Of a DNA stretch of 33,481 bases, positions 21,206 through 33,481 are shown one piece after another. This DNA comes from Sedimenticola selenatireducens DSM 17993. Lineage in GTDB: Bacteria > Pseudomonadota > Gammaproteobacteria > Chromatiales > Chromatiaceae. The notes beneath the pieces are model-generated. The model was not told the origin of the DNA. It did not search any database and worked only from the letters and a program-made list of their open reading frames with translations. Positions within the stretch are counted from its first letter, which is position 1; each line of letters starts with the position of its first letter. The stretch covers positions 1-33,481 of the forward strand of contig NZ_ATZE01000032.1 of the NCBI RefSeq assembly GCF_000428045.1. Reading direction: 5' to 3'. A program made the translations under genes and the position numbers.

Positions 21206-21335
21206 TCAGGCTTTGGTTAGACGCCTCGTCGGCAGTCACGGGTGGAGCATCCCTATAAATAGCGCCAATCGACAAGCCAGGCTAAACCGCTGATAAAACA
21301 ATACAGTTTCAACTATCCATCCATCGCTCAGCAGC

Positions 21336-21349
21336 GGGTCATATCACCC
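21336..21349. promoter_or_regulatory. Candidate activator site (UAS) for the kinase operon
   Basis: GGGTCATATCACCC differs by one base from the perfect palindrome GGGTGATATCACCC. It is centred about 106 bp upstream of the -12 element at 21446. The same palindrome with one different mismatch recurs at 24632-24645. The rest of 21206-21434 shows no other feature. Confidence 0.6.
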
Positions 21350-21434
21350 CGGAATAGCGGGGCATAGAACCCGTTACACTTGGTCATATTCCTCTGCGAA
21401 CAGAAAATTTGGCATTTGAGCGCATATTGTTTTA

Positions 21435-21450
21435 TGGCCCTGTTTTTGCT
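21435..21450 (+). promoter_or_regulatory. Sigma-54 promoter of the kinase-regulator operon
   Basis: TGGCCCTGTTTTTGCT matches the -24/-12 consensus, with GG and GC separated by exactly 10 bp. The start of transcription would be near 21461, giving a leader of about 160 nt. A sigma-54 promoter here implies positive autoregulation by the NtrC-type regulator. Confidence 0.7.
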
Positions 21451-21619
21451 GTTATTACTTGGATAGCAGCATATATTAGCTATGGGCTGCCTTCTTTGGT
21501 CGGGCTAGGTTTGTTCCTACACTACTGCTTCGCAGCGAGGGAATCTCTGTTGTGTGGTGTGTATTAATCATGTCGTGTGATCACTATGAACCAATCGCAA
21601 AAGGAGTACGGGCGTTTAA

Positions 21620-23065
21620 ATGCGTAGTGTCCAGTATTTATTGATGCGCTCCGTCTGGCTGCTGTCGGGAGTTGCACTGCTTCTGCTCTTTGTCAGCCAG
21701 GGACTTCTGATCTATAGCGCATGGGACTATGCAGCGCGTATAAAGCCAATACAGCAGCATATGGACTATCTGAGAATGCTTGAAGTTGCCGATTTTGATA
21801 TACGCACAAAGTTGGTTAATCTCCTTGACTCGGAAAGTGGATTTTTGGACCCTGATGAGACTGCGCGGCAAACAGAGCAACTTCGCGACCTGATCATATT
21901 TCGAACCAGTCTGGCAAAACCGACCTCAGATGCACTCAACTATGCCCTGACGCAACTGGAAGCTTTTGATGGCAGGGATCAGGTTGCGCTAAGAAAATCC
22001 ATGTCCGCGATGCGAAGCGCCCTCAACCAGGAGCTTAATGCGCATCAGTCATTGATCTCCTCTTTTTATATGAATGCCGAGCGGAAACAACGCTTTGCGA
22101 TCGGCCTTGCATTCGGGTTTCTGATTATTTCAGTCATGCTATGGGCAATGGTACGTCAGCGCATAGTTTTGCCGTTAAGTAAACTCACTGATCAGATGAT
22201 GTTGCTGACAAGGCGTGATTACTCCGAATTGGAAGTCGAAGATGCAGATCCGATGCTGTCTGGAATAATAGAAAAATATAACCATATGGCGAAGCGGTTA
22301 AAGATATTGGAGTCTGCACAACAACAACGGGAGGACACCCTGGCCACCGAGGTGCGAAACACAAGTTATCTGCTGTTACAGCAGCAGTATCGGCTGTCAC
22401 AGGCCGAACGGCTCGGAGCAGTGGGCGAAATGGCTGCGGGTATTGCCCATGAACTGCGTAATCCACTGACAGGTGTACAGATGGCCCTGGATAATATACG
22501 CGGTGACATGCCGGATGAGGATTTGGCTGAGCGTATCGACCTGGTTGCGAGCGAGGTAAGGCGTGTTAACCAGCAACTGAATCATCTGTTGGACCAGACA
22601 AGACAACGACCGGAGTTACCGACAAGTGTAAATATTCATGAGGATTTGAAGAGCCTCATTTCGCTGGTTAAATTCCAACTTTCAAGAGAGATTACGCTAG
22701 TTCATGAGGTAGATAAACAACTGACATGTCAGTTGCCGCGCAATCGGTTTCGTCAGGCGCTGCTAAATCTGATTTTGAATGCCGGTCAGGCACTGAATGA
22801 AACACCCGGAAAAATAACTGTGCGGGTTGTTGAAAAGGGTGATTTGCTTGAAGTCAAGGTAATGGACAGCGGTCCCGGGTTCTCCGCATCGATGCTAAAT
22901 ACAGGAATACAGCCTTTTCACACTGGGCGTTCTGATGGCACTGGGCTAGGCTTGGTGATGGTGCGTCGAACTATTAGCGATTTCGGTGGGGAAGTCCATC
23001 TGAGTAACCAGGAGGAGGGCGGCGCTTGTGTGACTCTGACAATGCCCTGTAATAAGAATGGCTAA
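21620..23065 (+). CDS. Membrane sensor histidine kinase of the sigma-54 system
   Basis: The 481-residue kinase has transmembrane 1 at about 11-33, a helical periplasmic sensor of roughly 125 residues, transmembrane 2 at about 159-179, a HAMP domain (about 180-232), and a HisKA domain. The phospho-acceptor is His277 in AGIAHELRNPLTGVQ, an NtrB/AtoS-like H box. The ATPase domain shows LNLILNAGQALNE, DSGPGFS and GTGLGLVMV. It should phosphorylate the regulator encoded immediately downstream, whose gene it overlaps by 8 bp. The AAGGAG sequence is 13 nt from the ATG, an unusually long spacing. No ligand can be predicted for the helical sensor domain. Confidence 0.92.
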   Translation: MRSVQYLLMRSVWLLSGVALLLLFVSQGLLIYSAWDYAARIKPIQQHMDYLRMLEVADFDIRTKLVNLLDSESGFLDPDETARQTEQLRDLIIFRTSLAKPTSDALNYALTQLEAFDGRDQVALRKSMSAMRSALNQELNAHQSLISSFYMNAERKQRFAIGLAFGFLIISVMLWAMVRQRIVLPLSKLTDQMMLLTRRDYSELEVEDADPMLSGIIEKYNHMAKRLKILESAQQQREDTLATEVRNTSYLLLQQQYRLSQAERLGAVGEMAAGIAHELRNPLTGVQMALDNIRGDMPDEDLAERIDLVASEVRRVNQQLNHLLDQTRQRPELPTSVNIHEDLKSLISLVKFQLSREITLVHEVDKQLTCQLPRNRFRQALLNLILNAGQALNETPGKITVRVVEKGDLLEVKVMDSGPGFSASMLNTGIQPFHTGRSDGTGLGLVMVRRTISDFGGEVHLSNQEEGGACVTLTMPCNKNG

Positions 23066-24494
23066 AACGATACTGATTATTGAAGATGAACCCCTGTTGG
23101 GTGCCGAGCTTAAGCGCCACTTTGAACGGGTAGGCTGGCGTGTGGAATTAGCTGAACAACTGGGGCTGGCAAGAAGCAAGTTGTTTGATAAGGGGTTACT
23201 CCCCCCTGTCGTACTCGCAGACATGAATCTTCCTGATGGAAATTCACTTGATTTATTGGAAGAGGTAAAGCAGAACAAAATTGTTGGCGAGTGGATATTT
23301 CTCACCGGCTACGGCAGCGTTGCTGATTCGGTACGCGCGCTACGGTTGGGTGCTTATGATTTTCTGGAAAAGCCGGTGGACTTCGAGCGGCTGGATTTGG
23401 TGATCAGCGGCGCAATGCGCAGCGCCATTGCCCAACGACGCCTGTATGATCAGTTGGAAACCGGCAGTCGTCATTTTACCGTGGAAAGTTTTATCGGCCG
23501 AAGCAGTGCCGCCGAGCAGATACGGGCGATTTTGCGAAAACTGATTGATACACCCATCTCGGCCTTGATCGTCAGCGGAGAGACTGGCACGGGCAAAGGC
23601 GTTGTGACCAAGATTCTGCATTACAGCGGACAACGTCAAGACGCACCAATGGTTGAAGTCAACTGTTCGGCACTGCCGAAAGACCTTCTGGAATCTGAAC
23701 TGTTCGGCCATGAAGCCGGCTCCTTTACCGGAGCCAAAGGACGGCGAAGAGGTCTTTTTGAACAGGCGGATGGCGGTACATTGTTCCTCGATGAGATTGC
23801 AGAAATGCCTGTTGACTTGCAGTCCAAGCTGCTTAAGGCTCTGGAAGAAAAAAAGTTCCGCCGGGTAGGCGGTGACCGGGAGATTCAGGTAGATGTGCAA
23901 GTGATAGCGGCGACCAACCGTGATTTGCTTACTTGCATTGAAGAAGGGTTATTTCGTAAAGATCTTTATCACCGGTTAAGTGTCTACCAGTTGCGGGTTC
24001 CACCGCTACGTGAGCGGGTGATTGATCTGGAACAGCTGGTGCCGTTATTTATCGCTGAGTTTAATGCAAAGTCGGGTAAGAGTGTTTCTGTGATCGGCGA
24101 AAGGGTCTGGGAGAAGTTGAAGGCGCATAGTTGGCCGGGTAATGTGCGGGAACTGCGTAATGTCATAGAGCGTTGCGTGCTGTTTTCAGACACCAATGAA
24201 CTGCCTGTTCAGTGGCTGCATTTGCAACCAGAAATTTATGCCCCTGAGGAGAGCGTCACCGTCCCCGGGGGGTCACTCTCCGGCCCCGATGCGGTAACAC
24301 CGGATCATCAATTTATACATGTGCCACTTGATGGTTCCATGGGGCTGGATGAAATGGACAGGTTTATTATCTGTGCCGCATTAGAGCAGAATCAGCACAA
24401 TGTTACCGCGACAGCCAGAATGCTCAATACTACTCGCGACACGCTTCGCTATCGTATCAATAAATATGATATCCAACTCCCGGACGGCGCTTAA
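23058..24494 (+). CDS. NtrC-type sigma-54-dependent response regulator
   Basis: The 478-residue regulator has a receiver domain (1-120; phospho-acceptor Asp55 in VLADMNLPDG, Lys105 in EKP), a central AAA+ sigma-54 activation domain (about 146-375) and a C-terminal Fis-type helix-turn-helix (about 445-470, NVTATARMLNTTRDTLRYRI). Walker A is GETGTGKG (174-181) and Walker B TLFLDE (241-246). The sigma-54-contact loop reads GSFTGA (221-226), a known variant of GAFTGA. All parts needed for an active enhancer-binding protein are present. The cluster of sigma-54 promoters on this operon and the genes that follow makes it their likely activator. Confidence 0.95.
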   Translation: MAKTILIIEDEPLLGAELKRHFERVGWRVELAEQLGLARSKLFDKGLLPPVVLADMNLPDGNSLDLLEEVKQNKIVGEWIFLTGYGSVADSVRALRLGAYDFLEKPVDFERLDLVISGAMRSAIAQRRLYDQLETGSRHFTVESFIGRSSAAEQIRAILRKLIDTPISALIVSGETGTGKGVVTKILHYSGQRQDAPMVEVNCSALPKDLLESELFGHEAGSFTGAKGRRRGLFEQADGGTLFLDEIAEMPVDLQSKLLKALEEKKFRRVGGDREIQVDVQVIAATNRDLLTCIEEGLFRKDLYHRLSVYQLRVPPLRERVIDLEQLVPLFIAEFNAKSGKSVSVIGERVWEKLKAHSWPGNVRELRNVIERCVLFSDTNELPVQWLHLQPEIYAPEESVTVPGGSLSGPDAVTPDHQFIHVPLDGSMGLDEMDRFIICAALEQNQHNVTATARMLNTTRDTLRYRINKYDIQLPDGA

Positions 24495-24590
24495 CACGAC
24501 ATCGTCACTCTTCAGCAATAACCATCCACAGAGGCCATTCGCGGCCGGTTTACAATGTCTCTCGTTACTCTTTTCAATGCTCATTATTTT

Positions 24591-24645
24591 GGGTGATTTG
24601 TCTCTCCGGTAATTGGGCGGTATCACCCGATGGGTGATATCACCG
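24591..24645. promoter_or_regulatory. Clustered activator half-sites (UAS) before the BON gene
   Basis: Half-sites are GGGTGAT (24591), ATCACCC (24622), GGGTGAT (24632) and ATCACCG (24639). TATCACCC-GAT-GGGTGATA (24621-24639) is a perfect inverted repeat, and GGGTGATATCACCG (24632-24645) matches the site before the kinase operon. The main site is about 70 bp from the -12 element. Confidence 0.7.
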
Positions 24646-24692
24646 GTTGTTGATAAATATATAACATATTGATTTATTAGATAAATAAGTGT

Positions 24693-24708
24693 TGGCACTT
24701 ATTCTGCT
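24693..24708 (+). promoter_or_regulatory. Sigma-54 promoter of the BON-domain gene
   Basis: TGGCACTTATTCTGCT has a perfect -24 (TGGCAC) and a -12 with one mismatch (CTGCT), with the exact GG-N10-GC spacing. Transcription would start near 24719, leaving a leader of about 150 nt with no strong fold recognised. Confidence 0.7.
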
Positions 24709-24866
24709 TGATACATCCCAAGTCCAACCAGACGTACCGGCATCCATCCAGTGGTTAATCTACTGGAAAGGTATGCAATACGTAGTCGGCTGAGCGGACA
24801 CAGTAATAATGCGTCGGTTCCGCCAGGGATGACAAACTGAACAATTAGATTATGGAGACATATATT

Positions 24867-25718
24867 ATGAAGCGTTATCCAATAAAAGCGATTGTAACCG
24901 CTTGTGCTATCGCATTAGCCACCGCCAGTACGCCGTTACTGGCTGACACAAGCAAAGACAGCTCTTCTGACCTATGGGCCAAAGCATCACTCGCCACAAC
25001 CTATACCCTCAATCGTCATCTTAACCCTTTTGATATCGACATTGAGGTAAACAATGGAGTGGCGACGTTGCGCGGTACTGTCGATGATATGGTTGAGCGT
25101 GATCTCGCTGAAGAGCTGGCTCTGGGCGTTGAAAACATCCGTGAAGTGGATAATCAGCTGAAGGTCAATCCCAACCCGGTTGACTCAGACGGCACGGTCA
25201 AAAAAGACAATAAAGATACAGAGCGTAGCTTTATGCGCAAGGTTGAGGATGCCAACGTGACAGCCAAAGTAAAGTCCCAGCTGTTATGGAACAGCAACAC
25301 AGACAGACTGGATATCACCGTTGAAACTCACGATGGTGTCGTCATGTTATCCGGTTATGTGAAATCGGATGCTGAATCACAACTGGCCGAGCAGATTGCA
25401 CGCAATACCAATGATGTCCGAGAGGTGAAAAACCAGCTGCAGATTGACAAACAGAAAGTACCGTTGGATGTTGCGGCCGAACGTAAAACCGAAGAGGCCG
25501 CTCAAAAGATTACCGACGGCTGGATAACGACCAAAGTAAAATCGGCACTGCTGTATAACCGTACGGTAGATGGCACCGATATCAATGTGGATACGAAAGA
25601 CGGTGTAGTCAGCCTGCGCGGTCATGTGGATAGTGATTTCGAACGCAAGCAAGCCATCGCAATCGCCAGCAATGTTAAGGGCGTGAAGTCCGTAACAGAT
25701 GAGCTTAAAGGCAGTTAG
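24867..25718 (+). CDS. OsmY-like periplasmic protein with three BON domains
   Basis: The 283-residue protein has a signal peptide (about 1-26, ending PLLA before DTSK) and three BON domains, at about 33-100, 122-190 and 210-280. Each has the pattern xxIDIxVxNGVVxLxGxVxS(D) followed by an REVxNQL-like end. BON domains bind membrane lipids; OsmY in E. coli is a periplasmic, RpoS-dependent stress protein with two such domains. The ATG at 24867 is preferred because GGAG lies 9 nt before it; an upstream ATG at 24852 would put that sequence inside the gene. It is directly downstream of a sigma-54 promoter with clustered activator sites. Confidence 0.9.
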   Translation: MKRYPIKAIVTACAIALATASTPLLADTSKDSSSDLWAKASLATTYTLNRHLNPFDIDIEVNNGVATLRGTVDDMVERDLAEELALGVENIREVDNQLKVNPNPVDSDGTVKKDNKDTERSFMRKVEDANVTAKVKSQLLWNSNTDRLDITVETHDGVVMLSGYVKSDAESQLAEQIARNTNDVREVKNQLQIDKQKVPLDVAAERKTEEAAQKITDGWITTKVKSALLYNRTVDGTDINVDTKDGVVSLRGHVDSDFERKQAIAIASNVKGVKSVTDELKGS

Positions 25719-25808
25719 TGGAATAACGGGAAATCACAGGATTGATCACAGGGCCAGGGATGGCGGTGCCGGTATAAAGATTCCTAACAGTCACCGAAGG
25801 AGTATGTT

Positions 25809-26087
25809 ATGAGCAAGTCCAATTCAGCAGAAAAACAAAACCACCAAAGTGACAAGGAGACGATATCCCGTCGGGTTGCCGAAGAGTTGCATGAACGTAT
25901 TGATCAAGCCGCCGATCGGGGCGACGAGTTTGAGCGAAAGCTGCATGAACGCGGTGCGGAAGTGCAAGATAAGGCACGGAATTTGAAAGGCGGTATCAGC
26001 AGGATAGCGCATGACAATCCCTGGGCGCTGGTTGGTGGTTCGGTGGCGTTGGGTATCCTTATCGGCTCACTGGCAAGTCGCCGTTGA
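25809..26087 (+). CDS. YqjD/ElaB-like (DUF883) membrane-anchored protein
   Basis: The 92-residue protein has a long charged amphipathic helix (about 15-65) and a single C-terminal membrane anchor (about 73-90) after the family motif HDNPWALVGGSVALGILIGSL. E. coli YqjD and ElaB are tail-anchored inner-membrane proteins that bind ribosomes in stationary phase. The start has GAAGGAG upstream. Its gene lies 90 bp after the BON gene and begins a tight run with the YqjE-like, YqjK-like and AI-2E genes. No sigma-54 promoter of its own was found in the 90-bp gap, so it may be transcribed from the BON promoter. Confidence 0.88.
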   Translation: MSKSNSAEKQNHQSDKETISRRVAEELHERIDQAADRGDEFERKLHERGAEVQDKARNLKGGISRIAHDNPWALVGGSVALGILIGSLASRR

Positions 26088-26094
26088 GTGACTG

Positions 26095-26514
26095 ATGCAA
26101 CAACCTGAGAGTACTTCGGTGCAAGCGGCAGACAGTGCTACAAAACCAAAATCCGGGTCGCTGCGTGATGCATTGGCTGATGTATTAGAGAGTAGCCGTC
26201 GACAGATTACGGAACTACTGGAACTCATTACGCTTGAAACCAGGTATTCAGGATTGATGCTGGGGGTTGTTCTGGCCATGGCTGTGATGGCTGTGCTTGC
26301 TGTATTCAGTATGTGGGGATTGTTTTTGGCCGCTTCAGTTTTATGGTTGCTTGCATCAGGGTGGAGTTTGATAGCCTCGCTGGTTACTTTAGCTGCAGCC
26401 AATGGCATGATTCTGGGCCTTGCTGTATGGCTGATGCATCGAGCTGTTGTGCGCATTGGTTTTGCCGGCACCCGGCATGTATTGGGATTGGATGAGTCTG
26501 ATGTTTCCAAGTGA
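26095..26514 (+). CDS. YqjE-like phage-holin-family membrane protein
   Basis: The 139-residue protein matches the YqjE/phage holin superfamily III (DUF1469). An amphipathic N-terminal helix (about 22-50, SLRDALADVLESSRRQITELLELI) is followed by two hydrophobic spans (about 54-80 and 83-112) and a short basic tail. Despite the name there is no evidence that these proteins act as holins. The gene starts 7 bp after the YqjD-like gene and overlaps the next one, matching the conserved yqjDEK order in E. coli. Confidence 0.82.
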   Translation: MQQPESTSVQAADSATKPKSGSLRDALADVLESSRRQITELLELITLETRYSGLMLGVVLAMAVMAVLAVFSMWGLFLAASVLWLLASGWSLIASLVTLAAANGMILGLAVWLMHRAVVRIGFAGTRHVLGLDESDVSK

Positions 26515-26779
26515 ATCGCAAATCCGTGCCCAGCGAGAAAAGGCGAACAGGGCAAAGTTAAGCGCAGTGCAGGCGCGGGTAGGTTTAAATCGATCGGTGC
26601 GTGCTTTGGCGGCTTCTCCGGCGGGATTGACTACGGGGTTTATCCTGGGAATGGGAGTTGGCTGGTTTCTGAATTCTCGTCCCGCACCCAGGTCCGGCAG
26701 GGGCTATCGGTTACCATCAATCAGCTTCCTTTTACCACTGTTGCAAATTATTCATTCACAGTTGAAAGACGGAACATAA
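26492..26779 (+). CDS. YqjK-like small membrane protein
   Basis: The 95-residue protein has a basic amphipathic region (ESQIRAQREKANRAKLSAVQ) with regularly spaced Arg residues, then a hydrophobic segment with PAGLTTGFILGMGVGWFL (about 44-61). This pattern resembles YqjK. The start is uncertain: ATG at 26492 or 26501 both fit and both overlap the upstream stop. It follows the YqjD- and YqjE-like genes, as in the E. coli yqjDEK cluster, which supports the call more than the sequence alone. Confidence 0.6.
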   Translation: MSLMFPSESQIRAQREKANRAKLSAVQARVGLNRSVRALAASPAGLTTGFILGMGVGWFLNSRPAPRSGRGYRLPSISFLLPLLQIIHSQLKDGT

Positions 26780-26793
26780 GAGCGAGGCCGACA

Positions 26794-27954
26794 TTGACTT
26801 ATACGGATAAACATTCAGAAGTTGATGTTCGGTATGACGATCGAAACGAAGTCGTTGATACCCCGGTCAGCCGTTCAATGACTACTGCATCCACCGGCAG
26901 CGACCACACAAGCACTCTCTCCGGACTCAGTATTGAGGCCAAACTGCTGGTTGGTCTGATGTCGCTGGCGGTTGTCTATACCTTGTCTGTAGCGCAGAAG
27001 TTCCTGATTCCTGTGGCACTCTCATTTCTTCTCAGCCTGGTCCTGGCGCCCGTAGTCAGGTGGTTGGAACAGTTACATGTACCCAGACCAGCGGGTGCGG
27101 GTGTTATCGTGCTGGTCATGGTGGCGGGATTCAGTTATGGGGTGTCAGGTTCTGTTGCGCCGGTGAGTAATTGGGTCGAAAATGCCCCACGCGTTCTGCG
27201 ACAACTCGAATTAAAAATCTACCCGATCAAGAAAACAGTCGAGGTGGTGAGTGAGACTGCCGAGCAAGTAGACCGTATCGCATCGGTGAATCCAAAACCA
27301 ACGGTACAGGTCAGTGAGCTAAGTTTTCGTGAGGTGCTATATGCCAATACCCAGGGTCTGGTTACGGGTACGGTAATGGTCACTTTCTTGCTCTATTTCC
27401 TGCTCTCCTGGGGGCGAATAGTGCTGTTTCGAATTGCCCGATTGCTTCATGAACATGGAGCAAGGCATCAGTTTTTGGCGTTGTCGGCGATTCTGGAGGG
27501 CGAAGTCTCCAAATACCTGGCCACCATTGCGCTAATTAATTTCTGCCTCGGCATCATAGTCGCCGCGGTGCTGTTTGCATTTGGAATGCCCAATCCCCTG
27601 TTGTGGGGAGCCGCCGCTGCGCTGTTTAATTTCATTCCTTACCTGGGTGGCATGACAACGGCTATCCTGCTGGGTGCGACCGCGTTACTTACCTTTGACG
27701 GTTTTGCTGTTCCCGTGCTGGTAGTGGCTTCATTTATCGGCTTGACGATTATTGAAGGCCAGATTGTAACCCCCTTAATACTGGGCAAACGGCTGGCACT
27801 TAATCCACTGGTGGTCTTTCTGAGCGTGGTTTTCCTGTTCTGGTTATGGGGCGTTCTGGGAGCCTTGATGGCAGTTCCCATGTTAATTACGCTCAAGCTG
27901 ATTGGCGACCAGGTGGAGTCACTGCGACCTATTTCAGTTATTGCCGGCAGGTAA
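26794..27954 (+). CDS. AI-2E family (PerM/TqsA-type) transporter
   Basis: The 386-residue integral membrane protein belongs to the AI-2 exporter/PerM family. A hydrophilic N-terminus of about 45 residues precedes eight or so membrane helices, with the family motifs FLIPVALSFLLSLVLAPVV, a central soluble segment, LLWGAAAALFNFIPYLGG and LTIIEGQIVTPLILGKRLALNPLVV. The start is TTG at 26794, with GAGG 6 nt upstream. The substrate cannot be told from sequence; family members have been linked to AI-2 or to Na+/H+ exchange. It is the last gene of the cluster that begins with the YqjD-like gene, 14 bp after the YqjK-like gene. Confidence 0.88.
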   Translation: MTYTDKHSEVDVRYDDRNEVVDTPVSRSMTTASTGSDHTSTLSGLSIEAKLLVGLMSLAVVYTLSVAQKFLIPVALSFLLSLVLAPVVRWLEQLHVPRPAGAGVIVLVMVAGFSYGVSGSVAPVSNWVENAPRVLRQLELKIYPIKKTVEVVSETAEQVDRIASVNPKPTVQVSELSFREVLYANTQGLVTGTVMVTFLLYFLLSWGRIVLFRIARLLHEHGARHQFLALSAILEGEVSKYLATIALINFCLGIIVAAVLFAFGMPNPLLWGAAAALFNFIPYLGGMTTAILLGATALLTFDGFAVPVLVVASFIGLTIIEGQIVTPLILGKRLALNPLVVFLSVVFLFWLWGVLGALMAVPMLITLKLIGDQVESLRPISVIAGR

Positions 27955-27975
27955 GTGGCCATGTGCATTATCGGT

Positions 27976-27991
27976 CGGTTGTTGTGTTGCT
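27976..27991 (+). promoter_or_regulatory. Possible sigma-54 promoter before cydA (weak)
   Basis: CGGTTGTTGTGTTGCT keeps GG-N10-GC and a good TTGCT -12 box, but the -24 has C for T and no C-A-C. No GGGTG-type activator site was seen upstream. The remaining leader to 28149 shows nothing else. Confidence 0.3.
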
Positions 27992-28149
27992 AAAGCTGCA
28001 ATGTAATGTCGATATGTGGAATCGGACTGCTTGCAAGCTGCAGCATTACTCCGCGTCTGCCGGCAATTCATACATGCGGTTTACCTGAAAAATAGGCTCG
28101 ACGCCAATCATTAACACTGTCGTACCAGTAGGCGGAGATTGTTAAGCTT

Positions 28150-29538
28150 ATGGAACTGTTGACCGACTCACTGTTACTGGCCCGTTTGCAGTTTGCATTC
28201 ACTGCGCTGTTTCATATCATCTGGCCGGTATTGAGTATTGGTCTTTCCCTGTTCCTGCTGTTGCTTGAGATATTGTGGTTAAAAACAGGTGATGTGGATT
28301 ATTACCGCCATCTGCGCTTTTGGATACGGCTGTTTTTGCTCAATTTCGTAATCGGCGTAGTCACCGGACTGCCGTTGCAATTCGAGTTCGGTACCAACTG
28401 GGCGCCTTTCGCAAAGGCCGCCGGTGGATTCTTTGGTAGTGTACTCGGCTTCGAGGCGACCATGGCGTTTATGCTGGAAGCCGGGTTTCTTGGGATTATG
28501 GCCTTTGGGTGGAATCGGGTTTCGCCCGCCATCCATCTATTTTCGACTGCAATGGTCGCAGTGGGGGCGTCACTCTCTGCATTTTGGATTATGTCCGCGA
28601 ACGCCTGGATGCAGACCCCGGCGGGTGGCCATATGGTCGACGGCAGTTTTGTAATCGAATCTTTTTCCCAGGCGATATTCAATCCAAATATGCCAATCGC
28701 GGTTTCTCATATGTGGCTGGCCTGTCTCGAGACGACACTCTTTGTGATTGGTGGTATCTCAGCCTGGTATATTCTGCGGCGGAGAGAGGGCGCTTTTTTC
28801 CTCAAGAGCTTTCGCCTGGTATTGCTCGGAGTTTTGATTGTCACTCCCCTGCAGATACTGCTGGGACACAGCAGCAGTATCGCACTGTTCGAACAGCAGC
28901 CGATCAAGGCGGCCGCTGTTGAGGCACACTGGCAAACCAATCCACCAGATACTGGAGCTGCATGGTCGCTATTGGCCTGGCCGGATCAGGAGGCACAGGC
29001 CAACAAATGGAGTATCGAGATACCCAATGCCCTGAGCCTGTTGGTCACGCAGGAGCGGTATGGTGAGGTAAAGGGACTGCGTGACTTTCCACGTATGGAT
29101 CAGCCACCGGCGTTGCCATTGCTGTACTACAGCTTCCGAATTATGGTGGTTATCGGTTTTTACCTTTTTTTCCTTGCCGGCTGGTCGCTCTGGTTGTGGT
29201 ACCGGGGTAATCTGTCTTCCCACCATATAGGCTCCCGGAAAGGCTTGCTGCGTTTGTGGGTGGCGGCCATTCCGCTTGGATATATTGCCGTTGAATGTGG
29301 ATGGATTGTGCGTGAGGTCGGCAGACAGCCGTGGGCCATTTATGGCCTGTTGCGGACTGTGGACTCCGCTTCTCCATTACCGGCGGCAACGATTGCCGCC
29401 AGTCTGGTCGGGTATGTTGTAATTTATACAATCTTGCTGGCGACCTTTATAGTATTTGCGCGACGTATCCTGGAGGCTGGGCCAGATATGGCGCTGCAAC
29501 CCACGTCACAACATTCTGACCAATGCGAGGCCGGGTGA
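28150..29538 (+). CDS. cydA: Cytochrome bd-type quinol oxidase subunit I (CIO-like)
   Basis: The 462-residue subunit carries the haem and quinol sites of a bd-type terminal oxidase. Visible are the haem ligands His22 (QFAFTALFHIIWP) and His187 (AVSHMW), acidic residues Glu102 and Glu110 in FEATMAFMLEAGF, the quinol-loop residues QPIKAAAVEAHW (250-261, with Lys253 and Glu258), and GRQPWAIYG. The quinol loop is short compared with the E. coli enzyme (522 residues), as in the cyanide-insensitive CioA group, which also has GLPLQFEFGTNW. It is followed by cydB with an overlapping start. The short loop makes cioA an equally good name. Confidence 0.93.
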   Translation: MELLTDSLLLARLQFAFTALFHIIWPVLSIGLSLFLLLLEILWLKTGDVDYYRHLRFWIRLFLLNFVIGVVTGLPLQFEFGTNWAPFAKAAGGFFGSVLGFEATMAFMLEAGFLGIMAFGWNRVSPAIHLFSTAMVAVGASLSAFWIMSANAWMQTPAGGHMVDGSFVIESFSQAIFNPNMPIAVSHMWLACLETTLFVIGGISAWYILRRREGAFFLKSFRLVLLGVLIVTPLQILLGHSSSIALFEQQPIKAAAVEAHWQTNPPDTGAAWSLLAWPDQEAQANKWSIEIPNALSLLVTQERYGEVKGLRDFPRMDQPPALPLLYYSFRIMVVIGFYLFFLAGWSLWLWYRGNLSSHHIGSRKGLLRLWVAAIPLGYIAVECGWIVREVGRQPWAIYGLLRTVDSASPLPAATIAASLVGYVVIYTILLATFIVFARRILEAGPDMALQPTSQHSDQCEAG

Positions 29539-30548
29539 TGGAATTATCGAGCTGGTCTCTTGGTGATATCTGGTTTTGTATCCTGGGTTTGTTCCTGGTG
29601 CTGTACGTGGTGTTGGATGGTTTTGACCTGGGGATCGGTATTATTTCACTGTTTGCCAGGAGTGAGCAGCGCCGTGACATGATGATGGCCAGCCTGGGCA
29701 GTGTATGGGATGCCAATGAGACTTGGTTAGTGGTTTTTGCAGGGGCTCTTTTTGGTGCATTTCCGGCGGTGTATGGAATCGTCTTACATGGACTCTACAT
29801 TCCAATCATTCTGATGTTATTTGGGTTGATATTTCGCGGAGTGGCTTTTGAGTTTCGTGCACATGCCCGGCACAAACAGTATTGGAATTACTGTTTTGGT
29901 GGTGGCAGTCTGTTGGCCGCATCCATGCAGGGTGTCGCACTGGGTGCGCTGATTGGTGGTATTCCCGTTGAGGAAATGGCTTTTAATGGCACTGTTTGGC
30001 ACTGGTGGTCACCGTTTGCGGTGCTGACCGCTGTCGGTGTGGTGTTTGGCTATATGTTGCTAGGCGCCACCTATCTGATTATGAAAACCCAGGGTCGGCT
30101 GCAACAGCACGCACGTCGCGTCGCAAAAATCACCGCATGGCTGACAGTGGCAATAAGTCTTATTGTTTCTCTATGGACACCGATGCGGTTTGATTATATT
30201 GCGCAGCGTTGGCTTGAATGGCCGACATTACTCTATCTTGCTCCATTGCCCATTGCAGCCGCAGGCAGCTTTCTTATGCTGTTACGTGCAATAGACAAGG
30301 GTTATGAACACACTCCATTTTTCTGGAGTGTCGGTATATTTATCTTCGCCTTTATCGGACTCGTGTCCAGCTTCTATCCGTTTCTTATTCCTCCATCCGT
30401 CATGATGGCAAATGTTGCCGCATCAAATAATACGCTGCTGTTCATGCTTGCCGGTATAGGACTGTTGATCCCCATTATGATTTTTTATAATGGTTTTCAA
30501 TACCGTGTATTCCAGGGGAAGATCAAAGTCGATGACTATGGAAATTAA
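29538..30548 (+). CDS. cydB: Cytochrome bd-type quinol oxidase subunit II
   Basis: The 336-residue partner subunit has eight to nine membrane helices and the family motifs VLDGFDLGIGII, WDANETWLVVFAGALFGAFP and RGVAFEFR. The ATG at 29538 shares its first base with the TGA of the upstream cydA gene and has GAGG 7 nt before it; an upstream ATG (29523) was rejected because that sequence would lie inside the gene. No cydX-like small subunit was seen immediately downstream; the next small gene encodes an entericidin-like lipoprotein. Confidence 0.93.
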   Translation: MELSSWSLGDIWFCILGLFLVLYVVLDGFDLGIGIISLFARSEQRRDMMMASLGSVWDANETWLVVFAGALFGAFPAVYGIVLHGLYIPIILMLFGLIFRGVAFEFRAHARHKQYWNYCFGGGSLLAASMQGVALGALIGGIPVEEMAFNGTVWHWWSPFAVLTAVGVVFGYMLLGATYLIMKTQGRLQQHARRVAKITAWLTVAISLIVSLWTPMRFDYIAQRWLEWPTLLYLAPLPIAAAGSFLMLLRAIDKGYEHTPFFWSVGIFIFAFIGLVSSFYPFLIPPSVMMANVAASNNTLLFMLAGIGLLIPIMIFYNGFQYRVFQGKIKVDDYGN

Positions 30549-30662
30549 ACTACCATGGCATAACTACTGTGTCAGTAAAGAGGGTTTCTCTTGATACAAA
30601 AAGAGCAGGCAGACGATTTACCGAACGACTGTAGTCAGACAACGCCGATTAAAGCATGGATA

Positions 30663-30678
30663 TGGCATGCGAGTTGCT
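30663..30678 (+). promoter_or_regulatory. Sigma-54 promoter of the entericidin-like gene
   Basis: TGGCATGCGAGTTGCT fits the -24/-12 consensus with GG-N10-GC and TTGCT. Transcription would start near 30689, leaving a leader of about 66 nt. No GGGTG-type activator site was found in the 110 bp upstream. Confidence 0.7.
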
Positions 30679-30694
30679 GTTATTACCATGGGAC

Positions 30695-30721
30695 CACAAC
30701 AAAAATCACAAAATTGTTGTG
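30695..30721 (+). other. Leader hairpin of the entericidin-like mRNA
   Basis: CACAACAA (30695-30702) and TTGTTGTG (30714-30721) form a perfect 8-bp stem close to the predicted transcription start. It may stabilise the 5' end; a regulator binding to the palindrome is the alternative. Confidence 0.4.
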
Positions 30722-30754
30722 TGACATAACGGCTGTTTAAGGAGGAATATTCTG

Positions 30755-30922
30755 ATGAAAACATTACTGTCGAAGATAAGCGCCACTTTTCTTATTCTTG
30801 TTGTAATGAGCGCAACGTTGTTTGCCCTGACAGGTTGCAATACAACGGCGGGTATGGGTAAGGATATTGAAGCGGCCGGAGAGGCCATTAACGAAGAAGC
30901 GGAAGAAAAGAAAAATTACTGA
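30755..30922 (+). CDS. Entericidin-like small lipoprotein
   Basis: The 55-residue lipoprotein precursor has a hydrophobic signal (about 9-25), the lipobox LTGC with Cys28 as the lipidation site, and the family ending NTTAGMGKDIEAAGEAINE, then a charged tail. EcnA/EcnB are small envelope lipoproteins of a stress-regulated antidote/toxin-like pair; EcnB is under RpoS in E. coli. Only one member is present here, and it looks EcnB-like rather than a pair. The ATG is preceded by AAGGAGG. A sigma-54 promoter lies about 80 bp upstream, and a long inverted repeat follows at 30945-31006. Confidence 0.88.
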   Translation: MKTLLSKISATFLILVVMSATLFALTGCNTTAGMGKDIEAAGEAINEEAEEKKNY

Positions 30923-30944
30923 ATGACCTGATCGACTCCTTGTC

Positions 30945-31006
30945 TTCATCTGAACAATGTCCCTGCTTGCCTGAGCGATTTCAGAAGGAAACATTGTTCA
31001 GATGAA
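30945..31006. repeat. Perfect 16-bp inverted repeat downstream of the entericidin-like gene
   Basis: TTCATCTGAACAATGT (30945-30960) and ACATTGTTCAGATGAA (30991-31006) are exact reverse complements around a 30-nt loop that can form an inner CTGA/TCAG stem. No T-run follows. It may be a transcript end or barrier, or a small mobile-repeat remnant. Confidence 0.6.
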
Positions 31007-31008
31007 AC

Positions 31009-31065
31009 GGGTTAAATCCCCCGTGGTCCAGGGTGTATTAAGCCGCGCGGGGTGTATTTAACCCG
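31009..31065. promoter_or_regulatory. Candidate activator sites (UAS) before the DUF2189 gene
   Basis: Three related elements are GGGTTAAATCCCCC (31009), GGGTGTATTAAGCC (31031) and GGGTGTATTTAACCC (31050). CGGGTTAAAT (31008-31017) is also the exact reverse complement of ATTTAACCCG (31056-31065). They lie 125-185 bp upstream of the -12 element. Matches to the GGGTGATATCACCC palindrome are partial. Confidence 0.5.
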
Positions 31066-31178
31066 TATCCGGCATAATCATTACGGTATGCATTGAATTG
31101 ATATTGTGGGTTGAAAAGCGAAGAACACTTCCGGTTTACGGGCAAGTTCTCCCTTGCCGAAGTGGCTGACATCTGTAT

Positions 31179-31194
31179 TGGCGTATTACTTGCC
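31179..31194 (+). promoter_or_regulatory. Sigma-54 promoter of the DUF2189 gene
   Basis: TGGCGTATTACTTGCC has GG-N10-GC and TTGC at -12. The predicted start near 31205 leaves a short 26-nt leader with a GGGAG Shine-Dalgarno. The rest of 30923-31178 is the inverted repeat and activator sites noted above. Confidence 0.65.
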
Positions 31195-31230
31195 TAGTTA
31201 CAGTCAGGTTAACGGAAAGGGAGCTTACTC

Positions 31231-32025
31231 ATGACTACTTATCAACTATCAACTTCCGAAACACCCAGGCAAAAATACACCATTCACTCGATATCGGTGA
31301 CGCGCCCACTACATTGGTTACGCGCGGGCTGGCGGGATTTTGTTGAACGTCCGGTATTAGGGGTGATCTATGGCCTGTTAGTGACCATCACTGGTCTGCT
31401 GATGACTTTTGGCTTGAATTCCATCGGCATGTTGTACCTGGTGCCGGTATTGTGTGCCGGTTTTTTACTGATCGCGCCAATAATGGTTGTCGGCCTTTAT
31501 GCAGACGCCAAGCAGCGGCAGTTGTCAAATGCCTCCCAGGCCGAGAAAATGGGCCGAATCCTGTATTACAACATGAGCAGTATAAGTGGTATGGGTATTA
31601 TCCTGATGCTTGTTTTCATCAACTGGGTAATGCTTTCCAATTTGATGTTGGCAGGTGTGCTCCATCAAATGCTCCCTACGTTGGGAGGCAGTACTGAATC
31701 CCTATCGATCTTTTACTCAAACCTGCCCTTCCTCTTTGTCTATATTGGACTGGGTGCGATACTCGCCGCACTGGTATTCAGGATCTGTGTCATTTCAATT
31801 CCAATGCTGGTCGATCAGAGCGTTGATACTTTCAATGCGATCTTCGTAAGCTGGAAGGCATCAGGGGAAAATGTTGCCGCCATGACCTTCTGGGCACTTC
31901 TGATTGCCGGCCTCTGCCTGATCGGCTTTCTGACGCTGTTTCTTGGTCTGATAGTGATTATCCCGGTGCTGGGTTATGCCTCCTGGCACGCCTATCAGGA
32001 TCTGTTGAGACCAATAGCTTCATAA
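31231..32025 (+). CDS. DUF2189-family integral membrane protein
   Basis: The 264-residue protein has a hydrophilic start of about 45 residues with the family cue VTRPLHWLRAGWRDFVERPVLGV, then about six membrane helices (near 43-62, 68-92, 116-142, 163-185, 214-236 and 238-255). A cytoplasmic loop reads YADAKQRQLSNASQAEKMGR. DUF2189 members are sometimes labelled cytochrome c oxidase subunit I-like but lack its haem ligands; their function is unknown. The gene has its own sigma-54 promoter and activator sites, so it is likely part of the NtrC-type regulon. Confidence 0.85.
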   Translation: MTTYQLSTSETPRQKYTIHSISVTRPLHWLRAGWRDFVERPVLGVIYGLLVTITGLLMTFGLNSIGMLYLVPVLCAGFLLIAPIMVVGLYADAKQRQLSNASQAEKMGRILYYNMSSISGMGIILMLVFINWVMLSNLMLAGVLHQMLPTLGGSTESLSIFYSNLPFLFVYIGLGAILAALVFRICVISIPMLVDQSVDTFNAIFVSWKASGENVAAMTFWALLIAGLCLIGFLTLFLGLIVIIPVLGYASWHAYQDLLRPIAS

Positions 32026-32045
32026 ATCCGGTGTTAAGTAGATTT

Positions 32046-32070
32046 CCACCCGGTGGTGTCAGTCGGGTGG
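32046..32070 (+). terminator. Possible terminator hairpin after the DUF2189 gene
   Basis: CCACCCG and CGGGTGG form a perfect 7-bp stem around an 11-nt loop, followed by only TTT. It is weak as a rho-independent terminator. The GGGTG sequence in the arm could alternatively be part of the activator-site array. Confidence 0.35.
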
Positions 32071-32218
32071 TTTGGGGCATTACCAATACTGCCGAACAGC
32101 GGTTTCATTTTCTGTGGATGGATCGGGTGTTACCAGCCCTGAGAAACCAGTGACGATATCATTGTCCATAACGGCAAGAACGATGTCGTAGACAACTGGG
32201 CGAATACCCCCATTTATC

Positions 32219-32232
32219 GGGTGGACACACCC
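32219..32232. promoter_or_regulatory. Candidate activator site (UAS) before the CsbD gene
   Basis: GGGTGGACACACCC has perfect GGGTG/CACCC arms with a 4-bp centre, the same 14-bp geometry as the sites at 21336 and 24632. A related half-site, ATCGGGTG, lies at 32122-32129. The centre is about 85 bp from the -12 element. The rest of 32071-32296 shows no gene. Confidence 0.6.
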
Positions 32233-32296: not shown

Positions 32297-32312
32297 TGGT
32301 ATGACTGTTGCA
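32297..32312 (+). promoter_or_regulatory. Sigma-54 promoter of the CsbD gene
   Basis: TGGTATGACTGTTGCA matches the consensus with GG-N10-GC and a perfect TTGCA. Transcription would start near 32323. The 120-nt leader contains a hairpin, GGCTCA-TTT-TGAGCC, at 32340-32354. Confidence 0.7.
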
Positions 32313-32443: not shown

Positions 32444-32641
32444 ATGAACTGGAATCAAGTCGAAGGTAACTGGAAGCAATTCAAAGGCAAAGCCCAGGAA
32501 AAATGGGGCAAGCTGACGGATGACGAACTTGACGTTATTGAAGGTAAGCGAGAGCGTCTTGTTGGAAAGGTACAAGAGCTGTATGGCAAAGCCAGGGAGG
32601 AGGCGGAAAAAGAAGTCTCCGATTTTGAAAAGGGATTGTGA
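32444..32641 (+). CDS. CsbD-family small stress protein
   Basis: The 65-residue hydrophilic protein has the CsbD pattern MNWNQVEGNWKQFKGKAQEK, then KLTDDELDVIEGKRERLVGK and a C-terminal charged helix. Relatives include E. coli YjbJ and B. subtilis CsbD, both strongly stress-induced (RpoS and SigB respectively); the biochemical function is unknown. The start is clear: TAGGAG lies 7 nt upstream. An upstream in-frame ATG (32273) would place the sigma-54 promoter and leader hairpin inside the gene and was rejected. It probably forms a short operon with the DUF1328 gene. Confidence 0.93.
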   Translation: MNWNQVEGNWKQFKGKAQEKWGKLTDDELDVIEGKRERLVGKVQELYGKAREEAEKEVSDFEKGL

Positions 32642-32737: not shown

Positions 32738-32902
32738 ATGTTAAGTTGGGCAGTCACATTTTTAATTATTGCCATCATTGCGGCACTACTGGGTTTCTCA
32801 GGTATTGCCGGTACCGCGGTGAATATTGCCTGGATTCTGTTTGTTGTCGGTTTGGTTCTCGCGCTGGTATTTTTCGTTATCGGGCGGCGCCCACCGGTAT
32901 AG
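32738..32902 (+). CDS. DUF1328 (YtjA-like) small membrane protein
   Basis: This 54-residue protein consists of two transmembrane helices (about 4-22 and 29-48) separated by [11 protein letters not shown], with a basic C-terminus (GRRPPV). This is the DUF1328 pattern: [20 protein letters not shown] followed by the GIAG turn. The function is unknown. The start has GAAGGAG 8 nt upstream. It is 96 bp downstream of the CsbD gene with no sigma-54 promoter of its own, so co-transcription is likely. A strong hairpin follows at 32929-32962. Confidence 0.88.
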
Positions 32903-33199: not shown

Positions 33200-33307
33200 T
33201 AAGAGACCCCCCAGCTTTGCTGGGGAGGCATTAGCAGTTTGACAGTAACGGGAGTCTCATAGTAACTCCAAAGCGTGAGCCGCCAAGCAACACGCAAAGG
33301 AGAAACC
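33200..33307 (+). mobile_element. Left end of an IS200/IS605-type element
   Basis: A perfect hairpin (CCCCAGC-TTT-GCTGGGG, 33209-33225) lies about 80 bp before the transposase start, as expected for the subterminal structure recognised by IS200-type transposases. The exact element boundary cannot be fixed from one end. Confidence 0.6.
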
Positions 33308-33481
33308 ATGAGACGAGTAGAAAGTTTAAGTCACACGAGGTGGGAGTGTAAGTACCATATCGTGTTCATCCCGAAATATCGTAGGAAAGTGCTTTTTGGC
33401 CAAATACGCAAAGAGCTTGGTGAAGTATTTCATCGATTGGCAAAGCAAAAGGAGAGTCTGATCGAAGAAGGTCATATTATG
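33308..33481 (+). CDS. tnpA: IS200/IS605 TnpA transposase, truncated by the window end
   Basis: The first 58 codons of a Y1-type transposase are visible and the frame is still open at the last base. The N-terminal signature SHTRWECKYHIVFIPKYRRK matches the IS200/IS605 TnpA family, which moves single-stranded DNA using a catalytic tyrosine and an HUH motif; both would lie beyond the window. The AAAGGAG sequence 6 nt before the ATG supports the start. The element borders the sigma-54 stress cluster on its right. Confidence 0.88.
   Translation, partial: MRRVESLSHTRWECKYHIVFIPKYRRKVLFGQIRKELGEVFHRLAKQKESLIEEGHIM

Follow-up and report, generated by a model that had tools for sequence, protein, structure and literature searches.

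What ties a run of small envelope and stress genes to one regulator encoded beside them? The question is raised by a 33,481-nucleotide (nt) stretch of Sedimenticola selenatireducens DSM 17993 (contig NZ_ATZE01000032.1, positions 1 to 33,481 of the forward strand; the whole stretch is called the window below), in which a membrane kinase and an NtrC-type regulator are followed by genes for an OsmY-like BON protein, a DUF2189 protein and a CsbD-family protein. A reading of the sequence alone had proposed that the regulator controls its own operon and these three genes through a palindrome shared by their sigma-54 promoters. The shared dyads, the -24/-12 sites and their nearness to one NtrC-type regulator are real and their arrangement is not random; dyads of the same spacing and sigma-54-like promoters in relatives support the predicted control. 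In our judgement it is probable that the kinase and the sigma-54 activator control their own operon together with nearby envelope-stress genes, and a role in stress is suggested by the kinds of gene that would be its targets.

Dyads and sigma-54-like promoters in the window

The kinase–regulator pair is encoded by overlapping genes:

21620..23065, + strand: membrane sensor histidine kinase, 481 amino acids (aa) (Pfam HisKA, HATPase_c)
23058..24494, + strand: NtrC-type response regulator, 478 aa (Pfam Response_reg, Sigma54_activat, HTH_8; NCBIfam)

The kinase carries HELRNPL at residue 277, its N-terminal sensor region has no Pfam match, and its position directly 5′ of the regulator is that of an adjacent cognate kinase. 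The regulator has the domain layout of the NtrC-type class, namely a receiver, a sigma-54 AAA+ domain and a Fis-type HTH_8 domain, with the AAA+ motifs GETGTGK at 174 and GSFTGA at 221, the latter loop being one letter off GAFTGA. Neither protein passes an NCBIfam equivalog cut-off.

The shared element is best written GGGT-N6-ACCC, and a copy matches at least 7 of these 8 letters unless stated. Sigma-54-like sites, of the GG-N10-GC type, were scored on 12 consensus letters. Distances are given in base pairs (bp).

21240..21253, unstranded: outer dyad GGGTGGAGCATCCC, 7/8 letters, 181 bp before the -24 element of the kinase operon
21336..21349, unstranded: predicted upstream activator dyad GGGTCATATCACCC, 8/8, 85 bp before the -24 element
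21359..21372, unstranded: second tandem dyad GGGGCATAGAACCC, 7/8, 23 bp further on and 62 bp before the -24 element
21435..21450, + strand: sigma-54-like promoter TGGCCCTGTTTTTGCT of the kinase–regulator operon, 10/12
24615..24628, unstranded: predicted activator dyad GGGCGGTATCACCC before BON, 7/8
24632..24645, unstranded: predicted activator dyad GGGTGATATCACCG before BON, 7/8, 47 bp before the -24 element
24693..24708, + strand: sigma-54-like promoter TGGCACTTATTCTGCT of the BON gene, 10/12
24852..25718, + strand: OsmY-like protein, three BON domains, start resembling a signal peptide (Pfam BON)
31009..31022, unstranded: dyad GGGTTAAATCCCCC before DUF2189, 7/8, and at the same time one arm of a longer inverted repeat
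31031..31044, unstranded: dyad GGGTGTATTAAGCC before DUF2189, 7/8
31050..31063, unstranded: dyad GGGTGTATTTAACC before DUF2189, 7/8, 115 bp before the -24 element
31179..31194, + strand: sigma-54-like promoter TGGCGTATTACTTGCC of the DUF2189 gene, 9/12, the weakest of five
31231..32025, + strand: DUF2189 integral membrane protein (Pfam)
32125..32138, unstranded: outer dyad GGGTGTTACCAGCC before csbD, 7/8, 158 bp before the -24 element
32198..32211, unstranded: weaker tandem dyad GGGCGAATACCCCC before csbD, 6/8
32219..32232, unstranded: dyad GGGTGGACACACCC before csbD, 8/8, 64 bp before the -24 element
32297..32312, + strand: sigma-54-like promoter TGGTATGACTGTTGCA of csbD, 10/12
32444..32641, + strand: CsbD-family protein (Pfam)

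Four of the five candidate promoters, those of the kinase–regulator operon, BON, DUF2189 and csbD, are preceded by two or three dyads, a layout that on sequence grounds matches the NtrC class (the fifth promoter, before an entericidin gene, is described below). The dyads stand in tandem 17–23 bp apart (21336/21359, 24615/24632, 31009/31031/31050 and 32198/32219), and the one nearest to the -24 element lies 62 bp from it at the kinase operon, 47 at BON, 115 at DUF2189 and 64 at csbD. A weaker copy (6/8) is found at 24591 before BON, and the role of the dyad at 21240 is doubtful because of its 181-bp distance. The sequence-only reading had correctly placed the palindromes at 21336, 24632 and 32219, the looser copies at 31009–31063 and the GG-N10-GC sites at 21435, 24693, 31179 and 32297; it missed the copies at 21240, 21359, 24615 and 32125 and the weaker one at 32198. 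The motif it gave, GGGTG-N4-CACCC, is present but better described by the tandem GGGT-N6-ACCC, and its gap of 70–180 bp between dyad and promoter is in fact 47–181 bp from dyad end to -24 element.

Whether the dyad exceeds chance was judged on the noncoding DNA preceding the five candidate promoters, at most 200 bp for each and 912 bp altogether, in which 3,328 dyad patterns (256 four-letter half-sites by 13 gaps) were enumerated. GGGT-N6-ACCC ranks first with 10 copies, the runner-up having 7, and these 10 belong to the 22 copies found in the whole window. Dinucleotide shuffles of the 912 bp held 0.37 copies on average and none of 2,000 reached 10, while the best of all 3,328 patterns in 60 composition shuffles had at most 6. 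Counted window-wide with up to two mismatches, GGGTG-N4-CACCC shows no enrichment (24 copies versus 20.6 expected); the signal is one of position, not of abundance throughout the window.

The same genome supplied a background of 40 stretches of 20 kb (800 kb, 17% of 4.59 Mb), in which dyads were counted 20–190 bp upstream of sigma-54-like sites. Among 654 background sites of at least 9/12 letters, 51 had at least one dyad and 4 at least two, all four of the latter being overlapped by open reading frames (ORFs). The window has 25 such sites, of which 4 have any dyad and all 4 have at least two (4/654 versus 4/25, Fisher 9e-5). For sites of at least 10/12 letters, two or more dyads occur at 0/108 in the background versus 3/6 in the window (Fisher 8e-5), and dyad pairs 15–30 bp apart number five in the 800 kb, four of them inside ORFs, versus four in the 33-kb window. 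That the palindrome might be no more frequent before sigma-54 promoters than elsewhere in the genome, a possibility raised with the original proposal, is not borne out in the sampled 17%. Since no strong background site has two dyads and three of six do so in the window, the regulon looks local within the sampled DNA.

Exact searches of the whole genome found GGGTG-N4-CACCC in 11 places (the reversed control pattern in 4); nine of the ten outside the window lie inside ORFs and one lies between two ORFs. Exact GGGT-N6-ACCC followed at 40–101 bp by TGG-N9-TGC gave 16 matches, 2 of them in the window, and the other 14 fall within ORFs of 150 aa or more (12), in the 5′ end of an ORF (1) or beside an ORF (1). 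A genome-wide regulon is rejected for now, these searches having yielded nothing convincing beyond the window; imperfect copies could exist beyond the sampled 17%.

Relatives of the regulator and their predicted targets

Clear relatives of the regulator (E up to 1e-110) occur in 45 of 210 family genomes, in 19 of 369 class genomes and in 3 of 398 phylum genomes, the last two counts including its own. Their full-length matches score 514–586 bits in the family, versus 287 bits for the best paralogue in its own genome, a clear gap that marks them as a subfamily. The kinase as a search probe found few relatives (two weak loci in named genomes and three others of 55).

Flanking regions were compared in 66 related loci (48 + 18; 67 with the window), intergenic DNA being defined with an ORF floor of 130 aa. 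An unbiased enumeration of palindromes in the noncoding DNA of the 67 loci puts TGGTT-N6-AACCA first, with 13 noncoding copies in 13 loci versus 3 copies in fivefold longer coding DNA. The window has no copy of TGGT-N8-ACCA; in place of TGGTT-N6-AACCA it carries the same-spaced variant GGGT-N6-ACCC, which differs from GGTT-N6-AACC by one letter per half-site. The exact GGGTG-N4-CACCC has no noncoding copy in the 66 related loci and is noncoding only in the window; what is conserved is the N6 architecture, while the half-site varies.

The kinase lies directly upstream of the regulator in 27 loci including the window, and 14 of the 26 relatives have a sigma-54-like site of at least 10/12 within 900 bp upstream. 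At those 14 promoters TGGT-N8-ACCA is the top pattern (21 copies, at 12 of the 14), and the best pattern in 60 shuffles of them had at most 12 copies. The nearest dyad copies lie 52–78 bp from the -24 element in the listed cases, and dyad pairs 18–23 bp apart occur in eight loci. Some of these loci hold additional small genes. In four (L055, L074, L085 and L127) a gene for a protein of 114–119 aa stands between the dyads and the kinase; in L055, L085 and L127 this protein has a signal-peptide-like start, those of L055 and L127 gave no Pfam match when scanned, and it is a candidate sensor partner. In the more distant L131 and L133 (45% identity) a gene for 139–143 aa comes immediately after the regulator, behind a sigma-54-like site, and the two products begin with a similar SFGAFKPVGN stretch.

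The G of the half-site has a parallel in one relative. On a tree of the regulators the window protein forms a long branch, with L121 as its closest neighbour (98/97), a placement that the program flags as long branches meeting; the L121 kinase gene has a G-type dyad, TGGGGCAAAACACCCA, 52 bp before a sigma-54-like site, with G in the variable place. An explanation through the recognition helix, which reads TTRDTLRYR in the window and TTRETLRYR or TTREKLRYR in most relatives, is not supported. Two cases count against it: G178, whose regulator has TTRETLRYR, has TGGGTCAAATGACCCG before csbD, and L121 itself has TTRETIRYR. The only other relative with D, L132, has the GGGT-like GGGTGAAATCCCCC after its regulator, but that pair is part of a likely terminator carrying a T run.

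Among the predicted targets, csbD is linked to the regulator across genomes. It is present in 57 of 204 family genomes, in 34 of 45 that bear the regulator versus 23 of 159 others (Fisher 1.8e-14; the regulator was counted over 210 genomes and csbD over 204, so that six may differ). With one genome dropped for short upstream DNA, a site of at least 10/12 lies within 300 bp before csbD in 17 of 34 regulator-bearing genomes and in none of 22 others (p 4e-5), the reverse-strand control giving 2/34 and 0/22. The site is accompanied by a loosely defined dyad in 11/34 versus 0/22.

Other genes of the window recur in relatives' loci with such sites. DUF2189 has a 10/12 site in three of four loci (L052, L054 and L060, not L082); DUF1328 is directly preceded by a site of at least 9/12 in two of five (L091 with 12/12, L093 with 11/12); and BON, in the one relative locus that has it (L065), has an 11/12 site upstream. 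The entericidin gene of L064 has no sigma-54-like site upstream. A dyad together with a sigma-54-like site also precedes cytochrome bd genes (cydA) in L122, L128 and L129 (Pfam for L128), a DegP-like trypsin/PDZ protease gene that immediately follows the regulator in L116 (L117 has a similar start after the regulator, by eye), a transaldolase–transketolase fusion in L094 and a formate/nitrite-type transporter in L064. Four of ten such downstream genes scanned gave no Pfam match.

Proposed control and its rivals

From these features we infer that the kinase would sense envelope disturbance and phosphorylate the regulator, whose dimers would bind the tandem GGGT-N6-ACCC dyads 47–115 bp upstream of the -24/-12 promoters. 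DNA looping, perhaps helped at BON by a bend at an integration host factor (IHF) site, would then bring in the AAA+ domain, whose GSFTGA loop would remodel and open the closed complex of sigma-54 RNA polymerase. The predicted targets are the kinase–regulator operon (autoregulation), BON (perhaps with DUF883), DUF2189 and csbD–DUF1328. Architecture and placement fit a textbook sigma-54 activator. The remaining features are these:

24662..24674, − strand: IHF-like site AATCAATATGTTA, between the BON dyads and the BON promoter
25809..26087, + strand: DUF883_C small protein (Pfam)
26095..26514, + strand: small membrane protein (unmatched in Pfam and NCBIfam)
30663..30678, + strand: sigma-54-like promoter TGGCATGCGAGTTGCT before the entericidin gene, 11/12
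30755..30922, + strand: entericidin EcnA/B-family small lipoprotein (Pfam)
32738..32902, + strand: DUF1328 small membrane protein (Pfam, NCBIfam above cut-off)

The IHF consensus is WATCAANNNNTTR, and AATCAATATGTTA is its sole exact match in the window (0.91 expected). The DUF883_C gene is possibly co-transcribed with BON, the small membrane protein at 26095..26514 possibly belongs to the same operon, and the DUF1328 gene is probably co-transcribed with csbD. An AI-2E family transporter gene also lies downstream of the kinase–regulator pair on the same strand. The BON protein scores 124.7 bits against NCBIfam OsmY, below the cut-off of 174. Cytochrome bd-type subunits are encoded among the stress genes at 28150–30548, without a dyad in the window. 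After the entericidin gene come two successive long inverted repeats, 30945–31006 and 31004–31069, one with fully complementary 16-nt arms and the other with 19-nt arms at 84%; neither has an Rfam match. The window ends with a GC-rich hairpin at 33207–33227 and, from about 33309 to 33481, what we take from the letters to be the start of an IS200-type transposase-like frame.

Several results weigh against the proposed control. The entericidin promoter, the best consensus match of the five and absent from the original list, has no dyad of 7/8 letters within 500 bp upstream, and a different activator, or the dyads downstream at 31009, may drive the gene. Those dyads (31009–31063) belong to the longer inverted repeats and possibly have another role. 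Both elements, dyad and sigma-54-like site, are missing at the genome's second csbD. Because the five promoters were chosen in knowledge of the finding, the counts in their 912 bp test the dyad and not the promoters. In the relatives, 17 of 34 regulator-bearing genomes lack the site at csbD, and an unbiased palindrome test of the 17 csbD promoters that have it returned GC-rich patterns only (18, against a shuffle maximum of 17), so that dyads before relatives' csbD are not established. A simple scan for dyad plus promoter in 210 family genomes separated regulator-bearing genomes from others weakly (7/45 versus 11/165). Regulator-bearing genomes tend to be larger, and co-occurrence counts are not independent because the genomes are related. 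Finally, about 26 further proteins of the genome match the regulator's sigma-54 activator domain, so another activator could own the sites.

This last point gives the best-surviving rival, in which the dyads do serve sigma-54 promoters as operators, but for a different activator encoded elsewhere. The exact half-site GGGT, unlike the TGGTT dominant among the regulator's relatives, would suit it. Yet the dyads are confined to the regulator's own operon and its neighbourhood, dyads of the same spacing occur at the kinase–regulator operons of relatives, and L121, the nearest neighbour on the tree, has its G-type dyad at the kinase gene; we consider a different activator improbable.

Less can be said for the idea that the palindromes are terminators or other RNA hairpins and the -24/-12 sites chance matches. 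Two adjacent dyads of similar sequence are bound to fold into a larger hairpin, positions 30945–31006 and 31004–31069 hold long inverted repeats, and the GGGT-like pair after the L132 regulator resembles a terminator with a T run. Against this, a search for terminator-like sites (loops of 3–8 only) gave none on the dyads, Rfam gave no match, the dyads keep a set distance from the -24/-12 sites, those of the kinase promoter lie 250 bp past the preceding gene, and the dyads at relatives' kinase promoters are not GC-rich hairpins; the hairpin explanation is very unlikely. An unrelated repressor or nucleoid protein whose sites, palindromes of this size being common operators, fell near the promoters by chance is just as implausible, since the tandem layout and -24 spacing match relatives' kinase–regulator promoters and also PrsR sites (mean spacing of 62.8 bp, sometimes repeated; PMC1569441, section 7).

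Control by the neighbouring kinase and regulator therefore stays our preferred explanation. A wider form of it strikes us as evenly poised between right and wrong: that a two-component system of patchy distribution in the class puts genes of envelope and general stress, which in enterobacteria answer to RpoS, Cpx and Rcs, under sigma-54, the half-site of its conserved tandem N6 dyad having drifted in this lineage from GGTT to GGGT along with the regulator. The stress genes in question would be the OsmY-like BON, CsbD, DUF1328 and DUF2189, and in relatives the DegP-like protease and cytochrome bd. The sigma-54 system as a replacement for RpoS was considered and rejected: it is no substitute for a lost sigma factor, because the genome has RpoS above cut-off (451.8 versus 378.7 bits).

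Comparison with known systems

NtrB/NtrC has the same domain plan as the window pair. NtrC binds dyads, often paired, upstream of sigma-54 promoters, with the half-site GGTGCA; the window's half-site differs, and the regulator scores 349.5 bits against a cut-off of 558.6. GlrK/GlrR (QseE/QseF), ZraS/ZraR and AtoS/AtoC likewise combine a kinase with an NtrC-type regulator, and GlrR and ZraR have links to envelope functions. The window regulator falls far below the equivalog cut-offs of all three (AtoC 351.3/714, ZraR 264/760 and GlrR 261.9/763 bits), and the GlrR site, TGTC-N10-GACA, is unlike the window's motif.

In layout, the closest analogue in print is PrsK/PrsR of the PEP-CTERM system (TIGR02916/TIGR02915), a tandem membrane kinase and NtrC-type Fis-HTH regulator. 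In section 7 of PMC1569441, PrsR is associated with a conserved 17-nt activator motif, sometimes repeated, that lies on average 62.8 bp before the -24/-12 motif in large intergenic regions; the printed motif ends in TTTACA and the targets are PEP-CTERM genes, whereas the predicted targets here are stress genes. The window proteins do not reach the family cut-offs (regulator 317.2 versus 502.6 bits, kinase 88.6 versus 300).

Literature searches found no description of such a system among the listed matches, and on that basis the kinase–regulator system seems to be undescribed, although its wiring is ordinary in kind. PMC12316311 contains no mention of CsbD, BON domain, entericidin, DUF1328, cytochrome bd or transaldolase. 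What makes it interesting is the gene set placed under sigma-54. CsbD, DUF1328, DUF2189, BON and entericidin are widespread stress proteins whose roles are poorly known, and their enterobacterial members are filed under RpoS and the envelope-stress systems. If the proposal is true, sigma-54 command would let the whole set be switched all or none through a single regulator, the defined operator would predict further members in other genomes, and the half-site change with kept spacing would be a natural case of co-drift between operator and regulator.

The gene kinds themselves are those of envelope stress in Escherichia coli, where yjbJ is presumably CsbD-type and ytjA DUF1328-type. A block of lipoprotein transport in that organism induces yjbJ, osmY, ytjA and ecnB, and degP is given as a CpxA/R gene (passages of PMC5105897); osmY and ecnB appear among the RpoS genes (passages of PMC2907692). 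In E. coli these genes (osmY, yjbJ, ytjA, ecnB and degP) are driven by RpoS, Rcs or Cpx, whereas in the window their counterparts stand behind sigma-54-like promoters and predicted activator dyads, in a genome that has RpoS.

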